The position numbers and the translations under genes are program-made. Positions 2,139-37,275 of a stretch of DNA of 56,603 nt are shown piece after piece. The notes below the pieces were generated by a model. It saw nothing but the letters and a program-made list of their open reading frames with translations, was not told the DNA's origin and made no database searches. How positions within the stretch are numbered: the first letter of the stretch is position 1; each line of letters begins with the position of its first letter. The stretch is taken from NCBI GenBank assembly GCA_934667505.1, contig CAKULY010000013.1, forward strand, positions 1 to 56,603, read 5' to 3'. Source of the stretch: an uncultured Treponema sp. GTDB taxonomy: Bacteria; Spirochaetota; Spirochaetia; Treponematales; Treponemataceae.

Positions 2139-4745
2139 TTATCTTCCGCTAAGAGTTTTTTTCCACCTGGCAATTGTTTCAAGAGCTTCAATAGGAGTCA
2201 TAGAATTTGGATCTGCAGAAAGTATTTCATCAAGAAGAATTTCTTCATCACTAAAAAGACCAGGATTTTTTGCTTGAATTACTTCAGATTGTTTTGGCAA
2301 AGAGTTTAGTTTTTCGGCGATGTCAGAAGAATTATTTTCTGCTTTGCTTTGGATTGTCTGCAAAATTTTATTTGCACGGTCAATTACCACCTGAGGAACT
2401 CCAGCGAGCCTTGCAACGTGAATACCAAAAGAATTTTCACTTGCCCCAGATTTTACTTTTCTTAAAAATGTAACAGATTCTCCCTGCTGAGCAACTTGCA
2501 TACAAAGCAAAATCAAAGAAGGATTTTCGATTCTTGTAAGTTCATGATAGTGAGTGGCAAAAAGAGTTCTGCACTTGATGCTATCAAGAAGGTATTCACT
2601 AACTGCCCAAGCTATAGAAAGTCCGTCTTCTGTAGAAGTTCCACGCCCAACTTCATCCATAATTACAAGCGAAGAACTAGTTGCGGAACGAAGAATATTC
2701 GCAGTCTCCGTCATTTCCACAAGAAAAGTCGATTCTCCACGGGCAAGATTATCGCTCGCCCCCACTCTGCAAAAGATTCTGTCAACAAGACCTATTTCCG
2801 CAGATTTTGCAGGCACAAAAGAGCCGATTTGAGCCAAAAGCACAATAAGTGCATTTTGCCGCAAAAAGGTACTCTTGCCTGCCATGTTCGGACCTGTTAT
2901 AAGTGCAAAAGAATGAGAATCCTTATCTTCCGCAGACAATGAAAGGCTATTTGGCACAAATTCTCCGCTAGGAAGATGCATTTCTACAACCGGATGGCGT
3001 CCATCTTCTATGTTTAGAACCTTAGAAGAAGAAAAAACAGGTCTGACCCAGCCGTGCAATAGAGCCGAATATGCAAAACTTGCAGTCGCATCAATATAAG
3101 AAATATCCTCTGCAGTCTGTATTAAGTAATACACGTAATCTTTAAGCTTGTTGCGAACTTCAACAAAAAGATTTCTTTCAAGCTCTAAAACTTTAGAGCC
3201 AGCTTCTGTAAGCTCGTGCTCAAGCTCTTGCAATCTTGCAGTGGTAAAGCGGTCTCCATTTACAAGAGAACGCCGTATTATAAAATCAGAAGGAACAGAA
3301 CTAAGCTTTCCGCGGCTTACTTCTATAAAATAACCGTAAGCATTTGTATTTTTAATTTTTAATGTTGAAATTCCAGTTTTTTTCTTTTCTTCAGCTTCAT
3401 ATTCAGCAAGAATCTTATCAAAATTATCGCGAATATTCCGCCAATGATCTAACTCTTGTGACCAGCCATCTTTTATAATTCCACCATCAGTCAATGCAGT
3501 CGGAGGATTTTCTACAATCGAATTTTGAATTAAATCAATTATTTCAACTGAATTTTGCTCATCGGTTAAGGAAAAATCATAGTTTTCTAAATCTTTTCTA
3601 ATTTTTAACCAATAAACAAGGCTTGAACGAAGCGCCTGCAAATCTTTTGGATGCGCTCTATCCATAGCGATTCTACCTGCAAGGCGTTCAACGTCTAAAA
3701 CACAAGAAAGTTCTTCGCGAATTTCTTCTAAAAGGTTTCTGTTATCGTAAAAAAAGCCGACATGATTCTGTCTTAAAGTGATTTTTTTTATATCCGTAAG
3801 AGGATATAAAAGCCACTGCCTAATCATGCGAATTCCCATAGCGGTGCTTGCATGATTTACACATTCCAACAAGGAATATTTAGAAGAAGAATCTCTAAGA
3901 TTTGAAACAATTTCAAGGTTTCTTCTGCTAGAATCGTCAATTACAAGATACTGGCTATCGTGATAGACTTTGATTCCACTTACATGAGGAACAGTAGAAT
4001 TCGTAGTTTTAGAAAGATAGTCCAAAAGAAAACCCGCAGGCGCGACTTCTGCTGAATCTGGTTTTAATTCAAAAGATGCAAGGTTATGAGTTTTAAACTG
4101 TTCTGTAAGTTTTTTATAGCCAAGTTCAGTATTAAAATCCCAATCAGGATAATATGAAATAGAAATATCTGGTATTTGCGCCAACGCATCCTGAACGGTT
4201 GCATTGTTTTTTAAAGACTGAGGAAGAAGCATTTCCTTTGGATTGCATCTGCCTAATTCTTTGGGAAAACTTTCTGCCATTTCGCTAGCGCGCCAAGAAG
4301 TAGCCTTAAAGCAAGATGTCGTAACATCTATAAAAGCGAAGCCGACTACGCCTTTAGAAACGCTCATCGCGGCAAGAAAATTATTGCTGTTTCCTTCAAG
4401 ATATTCAGATTCAAGCGCAGTTCCTGGCGTAATGATTTCAACAACTTTTCTTTCAGTAAGACCTTTTGCCTTTGGATTTCCAACTTGTTCGCAGATTACA
4501 ATTTTTTTGCCTAAACGTAAAAGTCTTGCAATATAAACTTTAGCCGCATGGTAAGGAACTCCGCACATAGGAGCAGTTCCTCTATGAGTTAAAGTTAAAC
4601 TAAGAAGACGCGATATTTCTAACGCATCCTCATTAAACATTTCATAAAAATCCCCGAGTCTAAAAAACAGCACATCATTTTTATATTCACTTTTAATTTT
4701 AATGTACTGCTGCATTACAGGAGTAAGAGATGTATCCTTTTCCAT
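2139..4745 (-). CDS. mutS: DNA mismatch repair protein MutS
   Basis: At 868 residues this is full-length MutS. The N-terminal mismatch-binding domain begins 'TPVMQQYIKIKSEY' and carries the Phe-x-Glu-type motif in 'GDFYEMF'. The connector, lever and clamp regions follow. The C-terminal ATPase has Walker A 'GPNMAGKST' and Walker B 'LVIMDEVGRGTS', then the helical dimerisation tail. It recognises base mismatches and small loops and recruits MutL. It begins 6 bp after the skp stop, matching the T. pallidum order TP0326-TP0328. No mutL is in the window. Confidence 0.98.
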   Translation of the reverse strand: MEKDTSLTPVMQQYIKIKSEYKNDVLFFRLGDFYEMFNEDALEISRLLSLTLTHRGTAPMCGVPYHAAKVYIARLLRLGKKIVICEQVGNPKAKGLTERKVVEIITPGTALESEYLEGNSNNFLAAMSVSKGVVGFAFIDVTTSCFKATSWRASEMAESFPKELGRCNPKEMLLPQSLKNNATVQDALAQIPDISISYYPDWDFNTELGYKKLTEQFKTHNLASFELKPDSAEVAPAGFLLDYLSKTTNSTVPHVSGIKVYHDSQYLVIDDSSRRNLEIVSNLRDSSSKYSLLECVNHASTAMGIRMIRQWLLYPLTDIKKITLRQNHVGFFYDNRNLLEEIREELSCVLDVERLAGRIAMDRAHPKDLQALRSSLVYWLKIRKDLENYDFSLTDEQNSVEIIDLIQNSIVENPPTALTDGGIIKDGWSQELDHWRNIRDNFDKILAEYEAEEKKKTGISTLKIKNTNAYGYFIEVSRGKLSSVPSDFIIRRSLVNGDRFTTARLQELEHELTEAGSKVLELERNLFVEVRNKLKDYVYYLIQTAEDISYIDATASFAYSALLHGWVRPVFSSSKVLNIEDGRHPVVEMHLPSGEFVPNSLSLSAEDKDSHSFALITGPNMAGKSTFLRQNALIVLLAQIGSFVPAKSAEIGLVDRIFCRVGASDNLARGESTFLVEMTETANILRSATSSSLVIMDEVGRGTSTEDGLSIAWAVSEYLLDSIKCRTLFATHYHELTRIENPSLILLCMQVAQQGESVTFLRKVKSGASENSFGIHVARLAGVPQVVIDRANKILQTIQSKAENNSSDIAEKLNSLPKQSEVIQAKNPGLFSDEEILLDEILSADPNSMTPIEALETIARWKKTLSGR

Positions 4746-4751
4746 TATAAA

Positions 4752-5276
4752 TTACTTTCCGAGTTCCGCTATAACCTGTTCAGTAATATCAACAGAATTT
4801 GAATACCATAAAATGGAGTTAGACTGCTGCAAACTTAAAATCATACTATATCCGCCAGATTCGGCGATTTTAGAAAGCGTATTGTAAAGTTTATTATAAA
4901 AAACATCTGAACCTTGCAAAGTTTTTTGCATAGATTCAAGCTCCACATTTTTTGCATTTGTGTATTCAACAAGAAAATCAGTTTTTTTAGTAATTTCTGC
5001 CTGCGTTTTTTGAGCAAGGGCATCATTGTTTTGCTTTTCGTAATCAACTTTTTTTGCCTGAAGCTTTTGCAGCTCTTCTGTGTATCTATTAACCTCTTGC
5101 TGAAATTCATTTCGCTTTTTTTCATAGTTTCTTACAGGAGCTGAATTTCTAAAATACGCATTGTAAACTTTAGCAGTATCTACAACACCAAATTTTGTAA
5201 TCTGCTGGGCAAAACCAACACTTCCCAAAAACAAAATAAAAACAAAAGACGCAATCTTACCAAAAATCTTTTTCAT
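4752..5276 (-). CDS. skp: Skp/OmpH-family periplasmic chaperone
   Basis: This 174-residue protein has a signal peptide (hydrophobic segment about residues 8-22, cleavage after 'VGFAQ'). A 'FGVVDTAKVYNAYF' strand and a long charged coiled coil (about 45-120) follow, the tentacle architecture of Skp, which holds unfolded outer-membrane proteins in the periplasm. It is 12 bp downstream of bamA and just upstream of mutS, as in T. pallidum. The ribosome site GAGG precedes ATG 5276. Its role is presumably to deliver substrates to BamA. Confidence 0.92.
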   Translation of the reverse strand: MKKIFGKIASFVFILFLGSVGFAQQITKFGVVDTAKVYNAYFRNSAPVRNYEKKRNEFQQEVNRYTEELQKLQAKKVDYEKQNNDALAQKTQAEITKKTDFLVEYTNAKNVELESMQKTLQGSDVFYNKLYNTLSKIAESGGYSMILSLQQSNSILWYSNSVDITEQVIAELGK

Positions 5277-28500: not shown

Positions 28501-31179
28501 TTATTTTTGCTCTACTTCGATTTTTTGCTTTACTTCTGGCAAAACTTGATATTCTGTTTTTATTAAAGAAACTGTGCTTTCAGGATTTTCAGAATCATCT
28601 TGAGCAAAGTCTACATTAAGTGAATTGTTTTCGCAATCCACAACAATTTTAATAGAATCTTTTTGCGCAGACTTTAATATAAGCATCGACACAGGGTCTT
28701 CTATTTGACGCTGAATAAGCCTTCGCATTGGTCTTGCACCCATTTCCGCATCAAAACCATTTTCTATCAAATATTCTTTTGCCTTCGGCTTTACAAAAAG
28801 CGTTATTTTTCTTTCTGCAAGCCTATCGCACAGTTCTTTTATCTGAATATCAAATATTTGCGCAATCTGCTCTTTAGTCAAAGGTTTAAATACAATTATG
28901 TCATCAATTCTATTTATAAGTTCAGGGCTTAAAAGCTTTTTTAACTCTGCGACTGCGTTGTTTTTTATATCTTCGTAAGGAAGAAGAGCATTTTCTGCGG
29001 AATTAAAGCCTATTTTTCCAGCAGAACTTATCTGCCTAGAACCAGCATTGCTAGTCATTATAATAACAGTATTGCGGAAATTTATTACATGGCCAGAATT
29101 ATCTGCAAGCTCTCCTTCTTCAAGGATTTGAAGCAAAAGATTAAAAACATCTGGATGCGCCTTTTCAATTTCGTCAAGAAGAACAACTGAATAAGGGTGA
29201 TTTCTGATTTTTTCTGTAAGAATTCCTCCGTTTTCGTAACCGATGTATCCTGGAGGAGCGCCGACTAGACGGCTTGCATTATGCTTTTCCATGTAGTCCG
29301 ACATATCAATTCTTACAAGCTGCTCTTCGTTTCCAAATAAAAACTTTGCCAAAGATTTTGCAAGCTGCGTTTTTCCGACTCCAGTAGGCCCAAGAAAAAT
29401 AAATGAACCAATTGGATGGCGAGGATTTGAAATTCCAGAGCGACTGCGCCTGACTGCCCCAGAAATTATTTTTATAGCTTCTTCCTGCCCAATAACAGAC
29501 TTATGCAATTCTTGCTCCAGATTGATTAGGCGCTCAGATTCAGAAACATCTAGCTGGGCAACAGGAATTCCTGTCATTGAAGAAATTATTTGACAAACAT
29601 CTTGTTCTGTTACGTGCCTAAGAATTTGCGCAGAATAGTTTTGAAAGTCTTTTTGTTTTTGTTCCAGCTGAGTTTTTAAACCTATAAGTTCGTCGCGAAC
29701 AACTGCGGCACTTTCAAAATCCTGCAGCTTAACCAAACGCTTTTTTTCTTCTGCAAGCTCTGAAATATTTTGTTCAAGGGCAAGCAGTTCTGCAGGCTTT
29801 TCTTCCTCTGTAATCTTCTTTTGAGCGCCAGCTTCATCAAGAATATCTATAGCTTTATCTGGCAAAAAGCGTTCTGGAAGATAGCGGCGGCTTAGTTTTA
29901 CAATCGAGGCAACAACGTTATCTTCAAACACTACGTTATGAAACTTTTCGTATTGATTTTTTATTCCTTTTAGAATTTCAACAGTTTCTTCGTCGCCAGG
30001 CTCTTCTACTAAAACTTTTTGAAAACGCCTTTCCAACGCTGTGTCCCTTTCAATATATCTAGAATATTCTTTTGTAGTTGTAGCTCCAATTATCTGAAGT
30101 TCTCCGCGGCTTAAAGCTGGCTTTAGCATATTAGAAGCGTCCATTTGCCCTTCAGGTCCGCCAGCCCCTATAAGATTGTGGAATTCGTCTATAAAAAGAA
30201 TAACGCTTTTATCAGCTTTTGCTTCGTTCATAATTCTTTTCATGCGCTCTTCAAATTCGCCGCGCAATTTTGTTCCTGCAACGACAGCAGTCAAATCTAA
30301 GGAAAGAATTTTTTTGTTCAAAAGTCCAAAAGGAACATTTCCTTTAGAAATTTTTAATGCCAAGCCTTCAACCACCGCCGTCTTTCCCACTCCTGGCTCG
30401 CCTATAAGTACAGGATTGTTTTTTGTTCTGCGGCTTAAAATTTGAATTATCCTTTGGATTTCTTTTTCACGGCCTATTACAGGGTCTATTTGACCTTTTT
30501 TTGCAAGCAGAGTTATATCACGGCTAAAGTTCAACAAAAAAGAATCTGATTTTTCTTCAAAATTTTTGCCTTCTTTATCCAAATTATCAGAAGAAGAAAT
30601 ATTTTTTGATTCTTCGCCTTCATTTTTTAAAAAATTTATAAAATCTGCAGCCTTTGAATCTAATTTAAAAAACTCTTTTATGGCATCTTCCTTAAAATTG
30701 CCTTCATTATTTTTTTGTATAGAAGACTTGCTTTCTTTTTGCAAAGACTTTACACAATCTCTAGCAGCTTCCAAAGTAATTCCTGCGGCAGAAAGAAAAG
30801 CTTCAGCAATACTGTCATTTTCCCGGATTGCGGCTAGAACTAAATGCTCTGTTCCTATGTAAGAATTCTCTAAATAAATGGCTTCTAAATCTGCAATATT
30901 TAAAAATACAGTCATCCGTCTGCTGTGCGGAATAATCATCTTATTTTGCGAAGTTTTTTCTTCTTCCAAAGAACATTCAACTGTCTTTTCCAGCTCTAGT
31001 TGAAAATCTTTTAGGTTTACATTTAATTTTTTTAGCAATTCATAGCCAAGACCTTCCGACTTTTTTATAATAGCTAAAAGAATATGCTCTGGATTTATAT
31101 AATTTGAACAAGTTTTTTTTGCTTCATCCTGACACAAAGCAAAAACAATCCGAGATGCTATAGGTGAAAATTTTTTCAT
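28501..31179 (-). CDS. clpC: ClpC-type AAA+ unfoldase
   Basis: This 892-residue Hsp100 protein unfolds substrates for ClpP. The double Clp_N repeat (about 1-145) holds '[16 protein letters not shown]' and '[11 protein letters not shown]', whose Glu residues match the phosphoarginine-binding pockets of Bacillus ClpC. AAA-1 has '[13 protein letters not shown]' and '[10 protein letters not shown]'. A UVR-type middle segment follows ('[19 protein letters not shown]'). AAA-2 has '[14 protein letters not shown]' and '[13 protein letters not shown]'. 'GKIGFNS' is a plausible ClpP-docking IGF loop. Its start overlaps the mcsB stop (ATGA), so translation is coupled. No clpP is in the window. Confidence 0.94.
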
Positions 31180-32279
31180 AAATTCCCCAACGAAAGTTTT
31201 TCAAGTGACTCTTGCAAAATTACTGCTCTAAGCCTGTCCTTTTTTAAGTCAAAATCATTTTTGATGTCTGGCTCAAAGGAAAAGCTGCACACTTTTGCCA
31301 TGTACGAAATATAGTTTTTTTGAACATCGTACATCAACTTATTTAAATTTTCTTCAGTTATTCCAGAAAGAAATCCTATTTTTAATCCAATTCTAAAATC
31401 AGAAATCATATCCAACGCTTCTCTAAACGAAACGAGCAAACTTGTTTTTGAAAGAGAATATGCTCTGATTATAGAATTTTTTATTAATGTTATTTTATTT
31501 TCGGCTAAATCTGCAAAAATCTTTCGTTCTGATTCTGCTATAAAACGGCAAGCGCTTTCAAAATCTGCTAACTGGTCAATTTCAGTGCCTGACTGAGACT
31601 GCAAGTTTTCTATTATAAAAAAGCAACCTGGAGCTGCGCCTGCTAATTTTTCTTCTATAAAAAAAGCTGGTTTTATGCCAAGTTTTTTTTCTTTGCAGAA
31701 CTGAACTATATTATTCATTTTTCCAGAACGAACTGCAAAAGGAAGATGCATCAGCGCAGACAGTTTCATTCCGCTTCCCGCATCTCTAAAACTTGCAGTA
31801 AGATAGCCAAAATCATAATCGGCTACAAATTGCAAATTATCTTGCAGTTCGCTGTCAATTTTTTTACATTGCTCAAAACATTTACGAATGGACAAACCAG
31901 AATCAAAGAATGAAAACCTAAGGTGATCGCAACAGTTTATGCTGCAAGAAAAATCTTCGTCAGATTTAAAAATCAAACCTGTAGAAAATTTTGAATTTAG
32001 AGTTTTTATTCTTTTTAGAAATGCCCGTTCTTGCAAGATTGCAAGTTTTTCTTCTTCTACTGAAGAAATATCTGCTAAATAGAACTTTTGAGCATCTTGG
32101 AATTTTGAAAAAGCATCAAAAATCAGCGACTGAATATGCCTTTTATCATCATCTGAACACGCTTGCGAAAAAGGAAAACTTGCAAGATTTCTAGCGAACC
32201 TTACCCTTGAACAGATAACTACATCGGATTCAAGACCTTTTTTTGAATACCACTGGAAGGACATTGTTTCACTGCTCAT
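31176..32279 (-). CDS. mcsB: McsB-like guanidino-kinase homologue with lost active-site motifs
   Basis: In Bacillus McsB phosphorylates protein arginines and tags substrates for ClpC. This 367-residue protein fits by position, length, N-terminus ('CSRVRFARNLASFPF') and C-terminal half ('MISDFRIGLKIGFLSGITEENLN'). The kinase motifs are degenerate: NEEDH(L/I)R is N115-C-C-D-H-L-R121; the GYLTSCPTN segment is 'GYLTASFRDAGSG' (Cys to Ser163); the (R)ASVxxHLP segment is 'KLSALMHLP'; and the RGxxGE phosphate-contact motif is not seen. An RDxxRA-like pArg motif remains as 'KDRLRA'. It may be a pseudokinase adaptor. The start at ATG 32279 has GAGG 6 bp before it and overlaps mcsA by 11 bp; the frame extends to 32384 within mcsA and is less likely. 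Confidence 0.85.
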   Translation of the reverse strand: MSSETMSFQWYSKKGLESDVVICSRVRFARNLASFPFSQACSDDDKRHIQSLIFDAFSKFQDAQKFYLADISSVEEEKLAILQERAFLKRIKTLNSKFSTGLIFKSDEDFSCSINCCDHLRFSFFDSGLSIRKCFEQCKKIDSELQDNLQFVADYDFGYLTASFRDAGSGMKLSALMHLPFAVRSGKMNNIVQFCKEKKLGIKPAFFIEEKLAGAAPGCFFIIENLQSQSGTEIDQLADFESACRFIAESERKIFADLAENKITLIKNSIIRAYSLSKTSLLVSFREALDMISDFRIGLKIGFLSGITEENLNKLMYDVQKNYISYMAKVCSFSFEPDIKNDFDLKKDRLRAVILQESLEKLSLGNL

Positions 32280-32823
32280 TTTTGTCCTCGCTAAAATCTT
32301 CTTCAGAATCTGTTTCGTTACCGTTCGCCACAAAGCCTTTTTCCAAGCAGCGTATGCAATCGCGGTAAAAGGCAGCTTTTTCATAATTTTCAGAAGCGAT
32401 GGCTTCGTCTAATTTTTTCTGCAAGTCGCTTCTGTCTGTTAAAGAATTTCTAAATCCTGCAAGTCTTTTTGGCATTGAACCTGCATACTTTTCTAGAATG
32501 CCGTGTTCCTGCATATTTTGTTTTATTTGTTCCTTAAAGACACTGTAACATTCAGGACAGCCAGCAGTTCCTGTTCTTTTTATAAAAGCAAGGCTTCTTG
32601 AACAAACTGGACAGAGTTTTTTTTCTTCTGGATTATTTTTAGCATTTATTTCATCGATTTCTTTGAAAATTCCTGCTAAAAGCTTTGGATTTGAAGGCAT
32701 AGGGGGATTTAAACCTCTTGCTAAAGCACATTCATTGCACAAGGTAATTTTTCTAGGCCCGTAAGGAGTCATGGATTCCACAAAAATTACGCCTTCTGAT
32801 TTATGACAAATATTGCATAACAT
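32269..32823 (-). CDS. mcsA: McsA-like zinc-finger/UVR-domain adaptor
   Basis: This 184-residue protein begins 'MLCNICHKSEGVIFVE', the typical McsA start; TTG at 32838 also opens the frame, but lacks support. Two CxxC pairs at the N-terminus (CNIC...CNEC) and two in the middle (CPVC...CPEC) would bind zinc. A C-terminal UVR motif ('LQKKLDEAIASENYEKAAFYRDCIRCL', split here as two segments: LQKKLDEAIASENYEK and AAFYRDCIRCL) resembles that of McsA, which activates McsB and ClpC in Bacillus. The C-terminus is acidic. It is first of mcsA-mcsB-clpC. No ctsR repressor gene is visible upstream, where a Lol-type permease gene lies instead. Confidence 0.88.
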   Translation of the reverse strand: MLCNICHKSEGVIFVESMTPYGPRKITLCNECALARGLNPPMPSNPKLLAGIFKEIDEINAKNNPEEKKLCPVCSRSLAFIKRTGTAGCPECYSVFKEQIKQNMQEHGILEKYAGSMPKRLAGFRNSLTDRSDLQKKLDEAIASENYEKAAFYRDCIRCLEKGFVANGNETDSEEDFSEDKNEQ

Positions 32824-32840
32824 TATAATTTTTCCCAATC

Positions 32841-34172
32841 TTACGATTTTCTAAGAATATCTAAAGGTTTTTCCTTGCCTGCTTTTATGGCGGGAATTAT
32901 GGAAACTAACAGAGACAACAAAATTACACTTACAGAAATTAAAGCCAGCTGATTGAATGGAATATCTATAGGAATTTCTGAAAGATAATATGCGGGATCC
33001 ATTAATTTTATAGAATAAAAAGAATCCAAACTGTTTCCTTTTAAAATATAAATAATTTTTGCTGCAAGGTTAATTAATTTTTCCATAAAAATTACAATTT
33101 TATTAGCATTTAATGAACAAAGGATTCCAATTGGCATTCCTATGACGACGCCTGCAATTCCGCAGCAAACTCCTGCTGCAAGAAATGAAAATGTTATTCC
33201 TTTTGCGCTGCCGCCAACACTCTTTAAAATTGCAATTTCGTTGCGACGTTCCATAACTAGCATTACAAGCGCGCTTGCAATATTTACAACTGCCACAAGC
33301 GCAATTAAAATCATAATCAGCATAATCAAAAGCCTTGTAGATGAAAATGACTGCATACGATATTCGTTTAGCTTCATCCAGTTAAAAACTCTAGAAAGAC
33401 CGCCGCTTATTTTTGAGCACTCTTGCTGAATAGCTATAAGATTTGTGGAAAACGGATTCTCTGTATGTATTTGAACAGACACAACCGACTTTTCTAATGG
33501 CATTGCAGAATAAGCTACGTCTAAAGGTATAAAGACCCAAAGCGAATCTAATTCTTGATAACCGCAAGAAACTACTGCTCCAACTTTAAAGACTGTCATT
33601 TTAGGAACGATTGTTCCAGATTCTAGCGTTCTTGCAGTTATCAGGCTAAACCTTTGGCCAGGCTTTATTCCTAGCACTTTAGAAAGATTTTCTCCTATAA
33701 TGGCAGTTTTTTCGCCATTTTTAAAATCGCTTAATTTTCCAGATTCAACTTTAAAGTACTTTTTATAATCAGGATTCATTTCAAAAATGCTTGCATCAAA
33801 AGAGCGGACAACAGCCCCTGTTCTGTAGAAATTAGATGCTGCAATCGCATCACATTCTAATGTTGGATAAACGGCATCCACTCCGTCAACTTGCAAAAAA
33901 CGATTTGCATAGCCAGTTAACTTTTCAAGACTTTTAGAAACAGAAGCGTTTCTTTTTACAATTGCGCTAAGGTGATTTGAAGAAAGAGCAATCATCCGCT
34001 CCGTCATTCCATTTATCATGCCATTTACAACAGAAATTACTGTAACTAGCGGAACTATGCAAAGTCCTATGCAAATAATAGAACCTACAATACTTCTTCT
34101 TGCAGAGGATTTTTTTTCAGAGCGGGGAAAAAGCAATCTAAACGAAAACATCAGTGAACTGAAAATTGTCAT
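32841..34172 (-). CDS. ABC transporter permease, LolC/LolE family (second)
   Basis: This 443-residue inner-membrane protein has the LolCE/FtsX-like layout: an N-terminal helix (about 25-50), a large periplasmic domain (about 50-270), and three C-terminal helices (about 275-310, 330-360 and 405-435). It begins 'SLMFSFRLLFPRSEKKSSARR' and includes 'IVVIGMPIG'-like helices near the C-terminus. With LolD and the other permease it forms the exporter that releases lipoproteins from the inner membrane. Its start overlaps the lolD stop (ATGA). Which of the two permeases is LolC and which LolE cannot be told from sequence alone. Confidence 0.87.
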   Translation of the reverse strand: MTIFSSLMFSFRLLFPRSEKKSSARRSIVGSIICIGLCIVPLVTVISVVNGMINGMTERMIALSSNHLSAIVKRNASVSKSLEKLTGYANRFLQVDGVDAVYPTLECDAIAASNFYRTGAVVRSFDASIFEMNPDYKKYFKVESGKLSDFKNGEKTAIIGENLSKVLGIKPGQRFSLITARTLESGTIVPKMTVFKVGAVVSCGYQELDSLWVFIPLDVAYSAMPLEKSVVSVQIHTENPFSTNLIAIQQECSKISGGLSRVFNWMKLNEYRMQSFSSTRLLIMLIMILIALVAVVNIASALVMLVMERRNEIAILKSVGGSAKGITFSFLAAGVCCGIAGVVIGMPIGILCSLNANKIVIFMEKLINLAAKIIYILKGNSLDSFYSIKLMDPAYYLSEIPIDIPFNQLALISVSVILLSLLVSIIPAIKAGKEKPLDILRKS

Positions 34173-34852
34173 TGCCTCACCTTCTCTAACTTGCCTTCTT
34201 TAATCGTGTAGCAGACATCACCTTTAGAAGCTAAGGCTCTATCATGAGTTACAAGGATAAGAGTTTTATGATATTTATCTGCAATCGAAAAAAGCAAATC
34301 TCCAATAAGACGGGCATTCGCAGGATCAAGGCTGCCTGTAGGTTCATCTGCAAGAATAAGAGAAGGTTCGTTTATAAGAGCCCTTGCGACAGCGACTCGC
34401 TGGCGTTCTCCTCCGCTCAGCTGGCTTGGCAAATGGTTCAGGCGATTTTCCAGTCCAACATCGAACAGCAGTTTTTTAGCCTTTTCTTCAGCGATTTTTT
34501 TAGGTACGCCAGCCATAAAAGCCGGCATATAAACGTTTTCAAGCGCGGTAAAATCTTTTAAAAGATAATGGAACTGAAATATAAGCCCCACAAAATTCGC
34601 TCTGTATTCGTTTTGCTCAGATTCAGAAAGAGAAGTTACTTCCCATTTTCCTGCAAAAATTTTTCCATTTGTCGCAGAATCTATGCTTCCGATTATATTA
34701 AGAAGAGTGCTTTTTCCGCTGCCGCTTTCGCCAACTATAACGGTTTTACTTCCTTCGCCTACGCAAAGATTTAAATCTTTTAGAATTGTAAGCCTTTCGC
34801 TATCTGTAGAAAAAGTCTTTTCAAGATTTTCTATTCTTAAAATTTCATTCAT
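34169..34852 (-). CDS. lolD: Lipoprotein-releasing ABC transporter ATPase
   Basis: This 227-residue ATPase has Walker A '[11 protein letters not shown]', the signature '[13 protein letters not shown]', Walker B '[12 protein letters not shown]' and the switch His in 'LVTHDRA'. It groups with the LolD/MacB-type subfamily. It lies between two LolCE-like permeases, each overlapping it by a few bases, so the trio is one operon and probably drives lipoprotein export to the outer membrane. A related macrolide-type exporter remains possible. Confidence 0.9.
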
Positions 34853-36152
34853 CGTGAAGAACCTCCGTTACATTCATTTTTAGAACGTTATGACTTGCGC
34901 ACCAAGAAGCAATTAAAGGCGCTAATATTCCAAACACGCAAATTAAAACTACTTCTGAAAAGTTTATCTGCGCTGGAATTGAGGCAAATACTTGGTACAT
35001 TGGATTTTGCCTTACAAAAGATACATTCTGCGGCGAAAAAATGCGTGTAAAAAGATACTCTGAATAAAACATAAAATTAGAAATAAACATAAATATGCTG
35101 CTCATATTCACACAAATTAAAAGACCTAGTACAAGACCAAAAAACGTTCCTGTAAATCCAGAAATAAAACCTCTCGCTATAAAAATTGACTTTATTTCGT
35201 TCTTTGAGCCGCCTAAAGCCGAAAGTATAGAAATTTCCTGCTTGCGTTCAAAGACAAGCCGGCGAACACCATTGTAAATATTTGTTCCAACCACTATAAA
35301 AATAAGAAAGACAAGAAAAAACAAAATATTTTTTTCAATTCTAAGGGCTCCAAACAAGGAACGATTAAACGAACGCCACGATTCAATTTGTATTTCTGGA
35401 AAAACCTTTTCTAAGCTGCTAATTACAGAAAAATCATCATTATAATTTTTTAGTTTTAATCCATAAGTTAAATCTAAACTAGAACTAATTTTTTCTTGCG
35501 CAGCAGAAAGATTTATAAACGCATAAGCTTGATTTATATCCATTGAACCGCTTTCAAAAATTCCTGTTACAATAAAATTTCTGTCGTAAGAAATAAGGCT
35601 TACATCTTTTGAACCGCTCATAGCCAGAAGATTGACGGAGCTTCCAACTGTGACATTAAGAGAATCCGCCAAACCTATTCCTAAAACTATTGAACTATTT
35701 TTTTCAATATCGAATGAGCCTTTAATTATTTTTAATTCCTTTGCAAAACCTTTGTCAGTATTTAAAATATCTTTACTAACTCCACGAACAATAACAGCCG
35801 CCTGAAAATTTCTTTTACTGGCAATCAGTCCTCTTGATTCGTAAAAAGGAGAAACGGTCAAAACATCGCTATTTTGCTCACATTCTTGCAAAAAATCAAA
35901 TTTTTTTTCTTCCGGCACAGATTTTACTTGCAAATGATTTGAAGAAATTTCAATTATAGACTTTACAAAACTCATTTGAAAGCCATTCATAACGCTCATT
36001 ACAGTTATAAGAGTCATTACTCCAAAGCAAATTCCTAATGTAGAAAGTTTTGAGGTGACTGCTGTTCGTCCTGTTCTGTCAACCAACGCAAAACGCTTTG
36101 AAACTGCAAAAATCCACTTCAGTGACGATAAAAGATTTTTATCTTTATTCAT
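34845..36152 (-). CDS. ABC transporter permease, LolC/LolE family (first)
   Basis: This 435-residue protein has the same architecture as the second permease: an N-terminal cytoplasmic tail and helix (about 40-65, 'VMTLITVMSVMNGFQMSF'), a periplasmic domain (about 65-275) and three C-terminal helices. The segment 'RKQEISILSALGGSKNEI' is the family's ATPase-coupling region. AGGAGA lies about 11 bp before ATG 36152, within the end of the preceding gene. It overlaps lolD by 8 bp. Confidence 0.88.
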   Translation of the reverse strand: MNKDKNLLSSLKWIFAVSKRFALVDRTGRTAVTSKLSTLGICFGVMTLITVMSVMNGFQMSFVKSIIEISSNHLQVKSVPEEKKFDFLQECEQNSDVLTVSPFYESRGLIASKRNFQAAVIVRGVSKDILNTDKGFAKELKIIKGSFDIEKNSSIVLGIGLADSLNVTVGSSVNLLAMSGSKDVSLISYDRNFIVTGIFESGSMDINQAYAFINLSAAQEKISSSLDLTYGLKLKNYNDDFSVISSLEKVFPEIQIESWRSFNRSLFGALRIEKNILFFLVFLIFIVVGTNIYNGVRRLVFERKQEISILSALGGSKNEIKSIFIARGFISGFTGTFFGLVLGLLICVNMSSIFMFISNFMFYSEYLFTRIFSPQNVSFVRQNPMYQVFASIPAQINFSEVVLICVFGILAPLIASWCASHNVLKMNVTEVLHDE

Positions 36153-37275
36153 ACTGCTTTACTCTCCTAACAACGCCATTCAGGTAGTAAATGTCCTTTT
36201 TACGCATTCCGTTTTTGTAAAATGATTCAACAATAAATCCGTTGTCAAAATCCATTGTTGTAATATAGTCATTTTGCGAACTGTATTCTGTTTTTAGCTT
36301 TAGCTCATTATCTTCATAGTAGTAATAATCAGGCTGACCGTCTTCAATTTTATAGATATAAACTTCTTTTTGAGAGCGCGTGCCTTCTGCTTTTGAAATG
36401 TTTTCTTTTTTATAGATGTACGTTTTTGTCTGCTTTTCTGTAATTCTGTTTTTTTCGTCGTAATGCCAAACGGTATGATTTTGCAAATGTTTTTTTTCAT
36501 CTTGAACAGAACTTTCTTTTAGGTCCACAACTCTCCCTTTATCATCATAAGAAAGTTCTGAAAATTTATTTGCTTCTGAAATTTGGCAGGAAACAGGAAC
36601 CAAACTATCATCAGAGTAAAAAAAATCTTCTGTTTTTTGAATTGAAGAATCCGAAAAATCTGTGGAAATATTCCAAGTTTCGCGTTTTTTAAGCCGCATC
36701 TTTTCATCATAAAATTTTCTTATAAGATGATTTTCCCACTTTCTAACAATAATTTTTTCCGTCCCCAAATTTTGCATAGAAAGAATTTCATCATCTATTG
36801 AAAAAAGACTTAAATTTCCTGAAGAATCTCTTTGCGCTCTTTCAGTTTTATTATCTTCAATCAATATAGGATTTAAATCGCTATCAAAAACTATTTTTTG
36901 ATCAAGCTCCTTAGGTTTTTGAACTGTAAAATCGCCTGATTTTTTTAAAAAGAAAGTCTGTATTAAATCTTCATCTTCAAGCAGGGGGTCATAAATATGA
37001 ATAAAATCTATAAAGCCTTCGTAACTAGGAACTAACAAATCGAACAAAGGCACGTTTCCTTTTAAAACCGTCCAGTGTCTTGAAGCAAGAACTTTAAATG
37101 GAAAATCAAAAAAACTTGAGAAACACTCTATTTCCGAAGAATAACTTTTTTTATTAAGTTCATAGCAGCAGACTTTTGCGCTCATTTTAAAAAGCGGATT
37201 TTCAACTGCAAAAATCATATTTAAAGAGGAAAGCATAAAAAAAACAGACAAAAAAACTTTTCTACTCTCTTTCAT
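36145..37275 (-). CDS. Exported protein with YD-repeat-like segments, unknown function
   Basis: This 376-residue protein has a signal peptide (hydrophobic about 7-23, likely cleavage after 'IFAVE'). The mature part holds spaced Asp/Tyr/Arg-rich strands such as 'YDDKGRVVDLKESS' and 'YDEKNRITEKQTKTY', like the YD repeats in bacterial surface proteins. The protein ends 'YYLNGVVRRVKQYE', and 'FIVESFYKNGMRKKDIYYLN' resembles a MORN/antitoxin-type strand. No catalytic motif is seen. It overlaps the first Lol-like permease by 8 bp and begins 4 bp after ftsY, so it is in that operon and may be a periplasmic partner of the exporter (inference). Confidence 0.75.
   Translation of the reverse strand: MKESRKVFLSVFFMLSSLNMIFAVENPLFKMSAKVCCYELNKKSYSSEIECFSSFFDFPFKVLASRHWTVLKGNVPLFDLLVPSYEGFIDFIHIYDPLLEDEDLIQTFFLKKSGDFTVQKPKELDQKIVFDSDLNPILIEDNKTERAQRDSSGNLSLFSIDDEILSMQNLGTEKIIVRKWENHLIRKFYDEKMRLKKRETWNISTDFSDSSIQKTEDFFYSDDSLVPVSCQISEANKFSELSYDDKGRVVDLKESSVQDEKKHLQNHTVWHYDEKNRITEKQTKTYIYKKENISKAEGTRSQKEVYIYKIEDGQPDYYYYEDNELKLKTEYSSQNDYITTMDFDNGFIVESFYKNGMRKKDIYYLNGVVRRVKQYE

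Follow-up and report, generated by a model that had tools for sequence, protein, structure and literature searches.

We find that McsB of an uncultured Treponema sp. lacks the catalytic residues of an arginine kinase, and that this loss runs through the whole Treponema clade. The gene lies between mcsA and clpC in the stretch of DNA analysed here (56,603 nucleotides of contig CAKULY010000013.1, assembly GCA_934667505.1; "the window"). From the residues lost, we strongly infer a loss of catalysis in the Treponema proteins. We consider it probable (roughly 0.6) that the window McsB is a pseudokinase that serves as a McsA-bound scaffold or adaptor for ClpC and is kept in a McsA-McsB-ClpC module. 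The original prediction, made from the window alone, had proposed such a pseudokinase adaptor, recruiting substrates to ClpC without phosphorylating arginine. The finding is real, conserved, clade-wide and larger than that prediction had it. The case for kinase loss is strong, and the mechanism offered below is a reasoned proposal.

The window protein is a homologue of the guanidino kinases. Its single Pfam domain, PF00217 (ATP-gua_Ptrans), scores 96.2 bits (cut-off 22.4), the nearest PDB sequences are McsB chains (6fh1 first, E 6.5e-35), and the two-domain McsB fold is present over the full length. The best NCBIfam matches are McsB models, all far under their cut-offs (NF053707, 159.1 bits against 500; NF002194, 187.8 against 385). 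The flanking mcsA and clpC genes have the same orientation and overlapping ends, which is the neighbourhood expected of mcsB, and the operon is intact as claimed. The plus strand of 31176-32279 holds many stops.

The kinase motifs are missing from this fold (Table 1). A pairwise alignment with Geobacillus McsB has no gaps around N-E-E-D-H / N-C-C-D-H or around GYLTSCPTN / GYLTASFRD, and the two changes called from the window, NCCDHLR at residues 115-121 and Ser163 for the catalytic Cys, stand as first read. Two alignments of the lid segment are possible, one with an Ile in the Glu212 column and one with a lid glutamate there. Neither restores an RGxxGE context.

A protein search returned 65 relatives. 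The Treponema-like ones at its top (48-96% identity) read NxxDH and lack both the CPTN Cys and RGxxGE; the three lowest (P0063-P0065) keep most of the catalytic pattern. A genome contig scan with the window protein as sole query gave no loci. An alignment-based scan of named-species genomes found 410 loci encoding relatives; the 80 of these that were listed include T. porcinum, T. berlinense, T. bryantii (two), T. parvum and T. ruminis. A PF00217 match is present in 187 of 295 sampled genomes from the phylum to which T. parvum belongs, and McsB was read from 145 of the 187. We dropped rows at least 75% identical to a kept row, together with the short L016 (in two pieces), L180, L226 and L220, and retained 135 spirochaete representatives.

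The catalytic residues Glu121, Cys167, Arg207 and Glu212 are all kept in a single representative (L087) and all lost in 88 of the 135; Glu121 and Cys167 are kept together in 13. As a control, we examined the listed homologues of L087, which reach down to 33% identity, and 120/120 keep all four residues. This set is biased towards intact McsB because these are the best 120 of the 7863 matches of an intact query. The alignment across spirochaetes that had been suggested as a check thus places the loss far beyond the window genome. L233, for example, encodes a degenerate McsB with NLEDHN and no catalytic Cys. Outside the 135, the short L220 also keeps all four residues and runs against the trend. 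This locus (3967-4989, minus strand, genome G190) encodes a 340-aa protein in which a McsA-like zinc-finger part is fused to a short McsB kinase domain, with the C-terminal domain of McsB seemingly missing; clpC follows, and a LolD-type ATPase gene lies just upstream.

We built an McsB tree of 141 rows with the catalytic columns removed (quick IQ-TREE, SH-aLRT support only). The window McsB falls in a Treponema clade of 79 rows (support 95). Glu121 and Cys167 occur together in 0/79 of these rows, Glu121 alone in 8 (T. berlinense among them) and Cys167 alone in 3. Other lineages lack kinase-type residues as well, among them L113, L115, L119, L125, L120, L133 and L136, which are nested in an otherwise kinase-type clade. 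Because the residues are missing in several lineages of the tree, they were lost more than once: the Glu121-with-Cys167 state shows at least 5 changes among the rows that also have McsA, by a method that infers neither root nor direction. On these alignments, the pseudokinase half of the original prediction is well supported and reaches far past the window genome: it takes in the Treponema clade and, where the residues were lost in other patterns, the majority of the spirochaete McsB sequences that we read.

The C-terminal region has changed as well. In the Treponema clade, the phosphoarginine (pArg) receptor motif RDxxRA has its first Arg (Arg337) in 0/79 rows, Asp338 in 17/79 and its last Arg in 79/79. 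The window McsB had been credited with an RDxxRA-like motif, K347-D348-R349-L350-R351-A352; its last Arg stands, but its first, the receptor arginine, is replaced by K, which makes the motif a weak argument for the original prediction. The spacing from a conserved C-terminal helix to the motif is 17-21 residues in 79/79 clade rows versus 9-12 in rows with Glu121 and Cys167. In the clade-wide insertion found here, F333 is present in 67, F335 in 66 and D338 in 75 of the rows with a residue at the position, and after it a new R349-L350 adjoins the invariant R351. The pArg receptor of the original system thus appears to have been rebuilt or abandoned in this clade. According to the accessible part of PMC8370763, the R337A/D338A change destabilises McsB multimers.

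The partner genes have stayed in place. mcsA lies just upstream of mcsB in 229/234 loci with enough flank, and 131-132 of 133 aligned McsA rows retain the cysteines of its second zinc finger. A review (PMC12467219) describes how, in the complex from S. aureus, this finger contacts the Y147-Y153 loop of McsB and thereby sets the position of the catalytic Cys157. In the Treponema clade the corresponding loop, FAASxDFGYL, ranks among the better conserved segments of McsB. The HxGK motif of McsA is kept in 13/13 rows whose McsB has Glu121 and Cys167 versus 13/119 of the others (Fisher p 3e-11). Where McsB lacks catalytic residues, the HxGKxP of McsA is altered (Y or F for H, S or T for K), and the window McsA reads YAGSMP.

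clpC follows mcsB in 155/195 loci with enough flank and in 71/75 Treponema-clade representatives. The original prediction had pointed to Glu residues at the predicted pArg pockets of ClpC. They are indeed there, E32 and E106 (B. subtilis numbering) being found in 73/73 full-length Treponema-clade N-domains. However, ClpB proteins of spirochaete genomes carry glutamates at the same positions; the pocket Glu is thus not specific to pArg reading, and we rejected it as a sign of this activity. The RGEFE motif is general among Clp ATPases, so the Arg254 residue that the window ClpC has within it is uninformative. In B. subtilis, Arg254 of ClpC is phosphorylated (numbering from PMC7235348).

Other arrangements of these genes were also observed. 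In a lineage that looks like Brachyspira (our identification, not from the record; L137, L139, L142, L144-L146, L148, L153-L158 and similar loci), mcsA-mcsB is kept, clpC is not adjacent and McsB is degenerate (NSNEHE / SPNI). ClpC is encoded elsewhere in three Brachyspira-like genomes (G039, G121, G152). In T. ruminis (L066, G002) clpC also lies apart from mcsB, with a ClpC match ~13-15 kb off on the same contig.

The P-loop motif of the phosphatase YwlE is CTGNTCRS, in which the Thr is needed. We searched the 295 spirochaete genomes with a DNA pattern for CxGNTCRxP. It matched in 8, and on reading all eight, only the match in G018 lies in a phosphatase gene. Unlike the Bacillota system, 294/295 spirochaete genomes thus have no YwlE-type gene by this pattern search; genomes whose McsB keeps Glu121 and Cys167 (e.g. 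G060, G072, G128) have no match to the pattern either. The G018 gene (L237 1071-1550) encodes a 159-aa LMWPc protein that matches the YwlE structures 4pic and 4kk3; its top match, 4egs, was deposited under a different name. L087 (L087/L228), the sole representative with a complete active site, comes from G018. No other sampled spirochaete genome pairs a canonical McsB with a YwlE-type gene, which makes G018 a useful positive control inside the phylum, although contamination of the assembly is possible. Loci L088-L114 have near-complete kinase motifs (NEEDHR, CPSN) and no YwlE-pattern match in their genomes; this lineage possibly has a kinase without the known phosphatase.

Low-molecular-weight phosphatases, as possible substitutes for YwlE, were found as PF01451 matches in 30/46 genomes. 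Their loops, read at one matching locus for 29 of the 30 and at the second of G018, are of the types CxGN(I/V)CRS, CTGNSCRSQ (NSCRSQ being presumably ArsC) and C(T/V/I/S)HNSARSQ, with a few single variants; CTGNTCRSP occurs only in G018, and we rejected the idea of such a substitute. The selectivity of YwlE depends on a single residue, according to the accessible part of a review (PMC5506225). A family search for CtsR, another component of the Bacillota system, was negative in 46 of 46 genomes; the B. subtilis control matched PF01451 and neither PF00217 nor CtsR. B. subtilis has both a PF00217 protein (McsB) and CtsR, so absences in the family search, that of CtsR included, carry an unexplained hole.

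We propose that an arginine-kinase fold that would be unable to transfer phosphate to arginine has been retained as the middle part of the module. The conserved FAASxDFGYL loop is probably still the docking site for the second zinc finger of McsA, and McsB probably brings substrates to ClpC, or gates ClpC, by protein contacts without phosphoarginine. A weaker possibility is that the window McsB still binds nucleotide, given the conservation of arginines 25, 27 and 85 and of the basic residue 172, which would contact phosphate. The adaptor role for ClpC, the other half of the original prediction, is plausible. There is a laboratory precedent for a phosphorylation-free role, since B. subtilis McsB C167S, a kinase-inactive mutant, retains some of the effect on MgsR turnover (PMC7235348), with an MgsR half-life of 12.3 min versus 17.7 min without McsB. 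The window protein likewise has Ser for the catalytic Cys. Unlike C167S, a single artificial change, it belongs to a clade that has lost several catalytic elements naturally.

Several observations weigh against this reading. ClpC does not adjoin McsB in 40/195 loci, mostly of the Brachyspira-like lineage with a few others, so operon pairing is not obligatory; a ClpC-type protein is encoded elsewhere in 12/12 searched genomes without adjacent clpC. The lid of the window McsB contains E209 and E210, and in one alignment one of these glutamates falls in the Glu212 column. The association between McsA and McsB motifs amounts to 4-5 independent changes, and a kinship-corrected sign test is not significant (median p 0.25). 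G190, with the fused L220, keeps the four catalytic residues and yet has no match to the YwlE pattern, so phosphatase and kinase do not track perfectly. Finally, Chlamydia ClpCP degrades casein only if it is arginine-phosphorylated (PMC10128030), so that phosphorylation-free delivery would need another recognition mode.

A bolder version of the pseudokinase reading is tentative and, on balance, doubtful. Treponemes would run a phosphoarginine-free McsA-McsB-ClpC system in which the kinase has become a nucleotide-binding scaffold, the receptor, rebuilt with the FxFExDI insertion, serves as a new element for docking or self-inhibition, and McsA has lost its activating HxGK in step. The arginine-phosphorylation code would then have been dropped several times, and the machine that reads it kept.

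The protein could instead be a kinase-dead regulator, with McsB-McsA holding ClpC inactive or setting its oligomer until release under stress or nucleotide binding. We consider this unlikely. The regulator draws on the same neighbourhood and conservation as the adaptor, and also on basic residues conserved in the Treponema clade: R/K at position 25 in 79/79 rows, R at 27 in 71/79, R/K at 85 in 75/79 and R/K at 172 in 76/79. In phosphagen kinases, the basic residues at these four positions bind the phosphates of the nucleotide. However, no evidence here tells the regulator from the adaptor, and the inhibition described for B. subtilis is the reverse, ClpC inhibiting McsB.

It is improbable that McsB is still an enzyme, either a divergent kinase or another phosphotransferase using the lid glutamates or new residues. 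Full or near-full conservation of N115, D118, H119, G168, G170 and E233, and the lid Glu alignable with Glu212, would fit such an enzyme. Against it, the catalytic positions rank with the more variable columns of the clade (entropy percentiles: NEEDH acidic pair 97th, Arg207 92nd, Glu212 85th, Cys167 73rd), and E209 and E210 are not conserved across it.

A decaying relic of a lost arginine-phosphorylation system is very improbable, even though the catalytic residues were lost differently in different lineages and a YwlE gene is found in 1/295 genomes. Of 51 close mcsB pairs, 49 gave a dN/dS value, always within 0.024-0.171 (7 of the 49 keep Glu121 and Cys167, two pairs were entered twice, and many dS values are large). 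Reading frames are open in the listed family matches, save one with a stop and L016, and the clade-specific insertion is conserved. The neighbours of the lost NEEDH acids are almost invariant in the clade (N 79/79, D 78/79, H 79/79), the McsA-contact loop is conserved, and mcsA and clpC adjoin mcsB in most loci. The clade combines loss of catalytic residues with purifying selection on the gene, as expected of a pseudoenzyme. Misalignment or a wrong family, despite the lid that aligns two ways, and a second, canonical McsB that does the work are hardly credible, since residues 116/117 and Ser163 are fixed gap-free between invariant residues and each of the six named Treponema genomes, the scope of this single-copy check (the window genome lies outside it), has one PF00217 protein.

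Compared with the Bacillota McsB kinase (Geobacillus 6fh1/6fh2/6fh3, B. subtilis 6tv6, S. aureus 8gqd), the Treponema protein has lost the Glu pair, the Cys, RGxxGE and the pArg-receptor Arg, and has gained the FxFExDI segment. Unlike phosphagen kinases such as arginine or creatine kinase, the window McsB has neither the N-terminal phosphagen-kinase domain nor the four catalytic elements. It resembles the bacterial Ser/Thr pseudokinases in being a kinase fold without catalytic residues, but their protein-kinase fold is unrelated, and in the accessible part of PMC12599244, a review of them, McsB appears only in the reference list. In a literature search that left most subscription papers uncovered, no publication dealing with Treponema McsB or with an arginine pseudokinase was found. 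The accessible part of PMC2965109, a T. denticola stress transcriptome, does not mention mcsB.

The genes upstream of mcsA form a permease-ATPase-permease set that we take, from its arrangement, to be LolCDE-like. Treponema-clade mcsA-mcsB-clpC lies directly behind a set of this kind, window included. A LolD-type gene is upstream in 66/69 Treponema-clade representatives with enough flank and in 0/5 of L228-L232, whose McsB has Glu121 and Cys167 (one locus with slightly less flank).

Table 1. Features of the mcsA-mcsB-clpC region of the window.
Feature	Position	Strand	Description
mcsB-like gene	31176..32279	minus	Catalytically degenerate McsB, 367 aa; ORF read 32279 -> 31176
NCCDHLR, residues 115-121	31917..31937	minus	Replaces NEEDH(I/L)R; both acidic residues changed to Cys
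LTASFRDAGSGMK, residues 160-172	31764..31802	minus	Replaces CPTN segment; Ser163 at catalytic Cys position, Lys172 at phosphate-binding Arg position
Lid loop, residues 200-215	31635..31682	minus	Without RGxxGE; alignment ambiguous
FVADYDFGYL, residues 151-160	31800..31829	minus	Equivalent of S. aureus McsB loop touching McsA zinc finger 2; conserved in Treponema clade
FxFExDI-type insertion, residues 331-341	31257..31289	minus	Clade-wide; before former pArg-receptor helix
KDRLRA, residues 347-352	31224..31241	minus	Aligned with pArg-receptor motif RDxxRA
mcsA	32269..32823	minus	UVR motif and both CxxC zinc fingers kept; YAGSMP where HxGKxP expected
clpC	28501..31179	minus	892 aa; ATG overlaps mcsB stop by 4 nt
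Upstream run, tightly packed	32841..37275	minus	FtsX/MacB-type permease, ABC ATPase, second permease, 376-aa protein without Pfam match

In the current view, McsB writes a degradation mark by phosphorylating damaged proteins on arginine. Here, a large clade keeps the writer without its catalytic site beside the same activator and unfoldase, so that the kinase and scaffold functions are separated in nature. The annotation of these spirochaete proteins as "protein arginine kinase" is likely wrong, and phosphoarginine signalling cannot be deduced from the Glu pockets of ClpC. Such a clade also opens to direct test the disputed role of McsB as an adaptor independent of its kinase activity.

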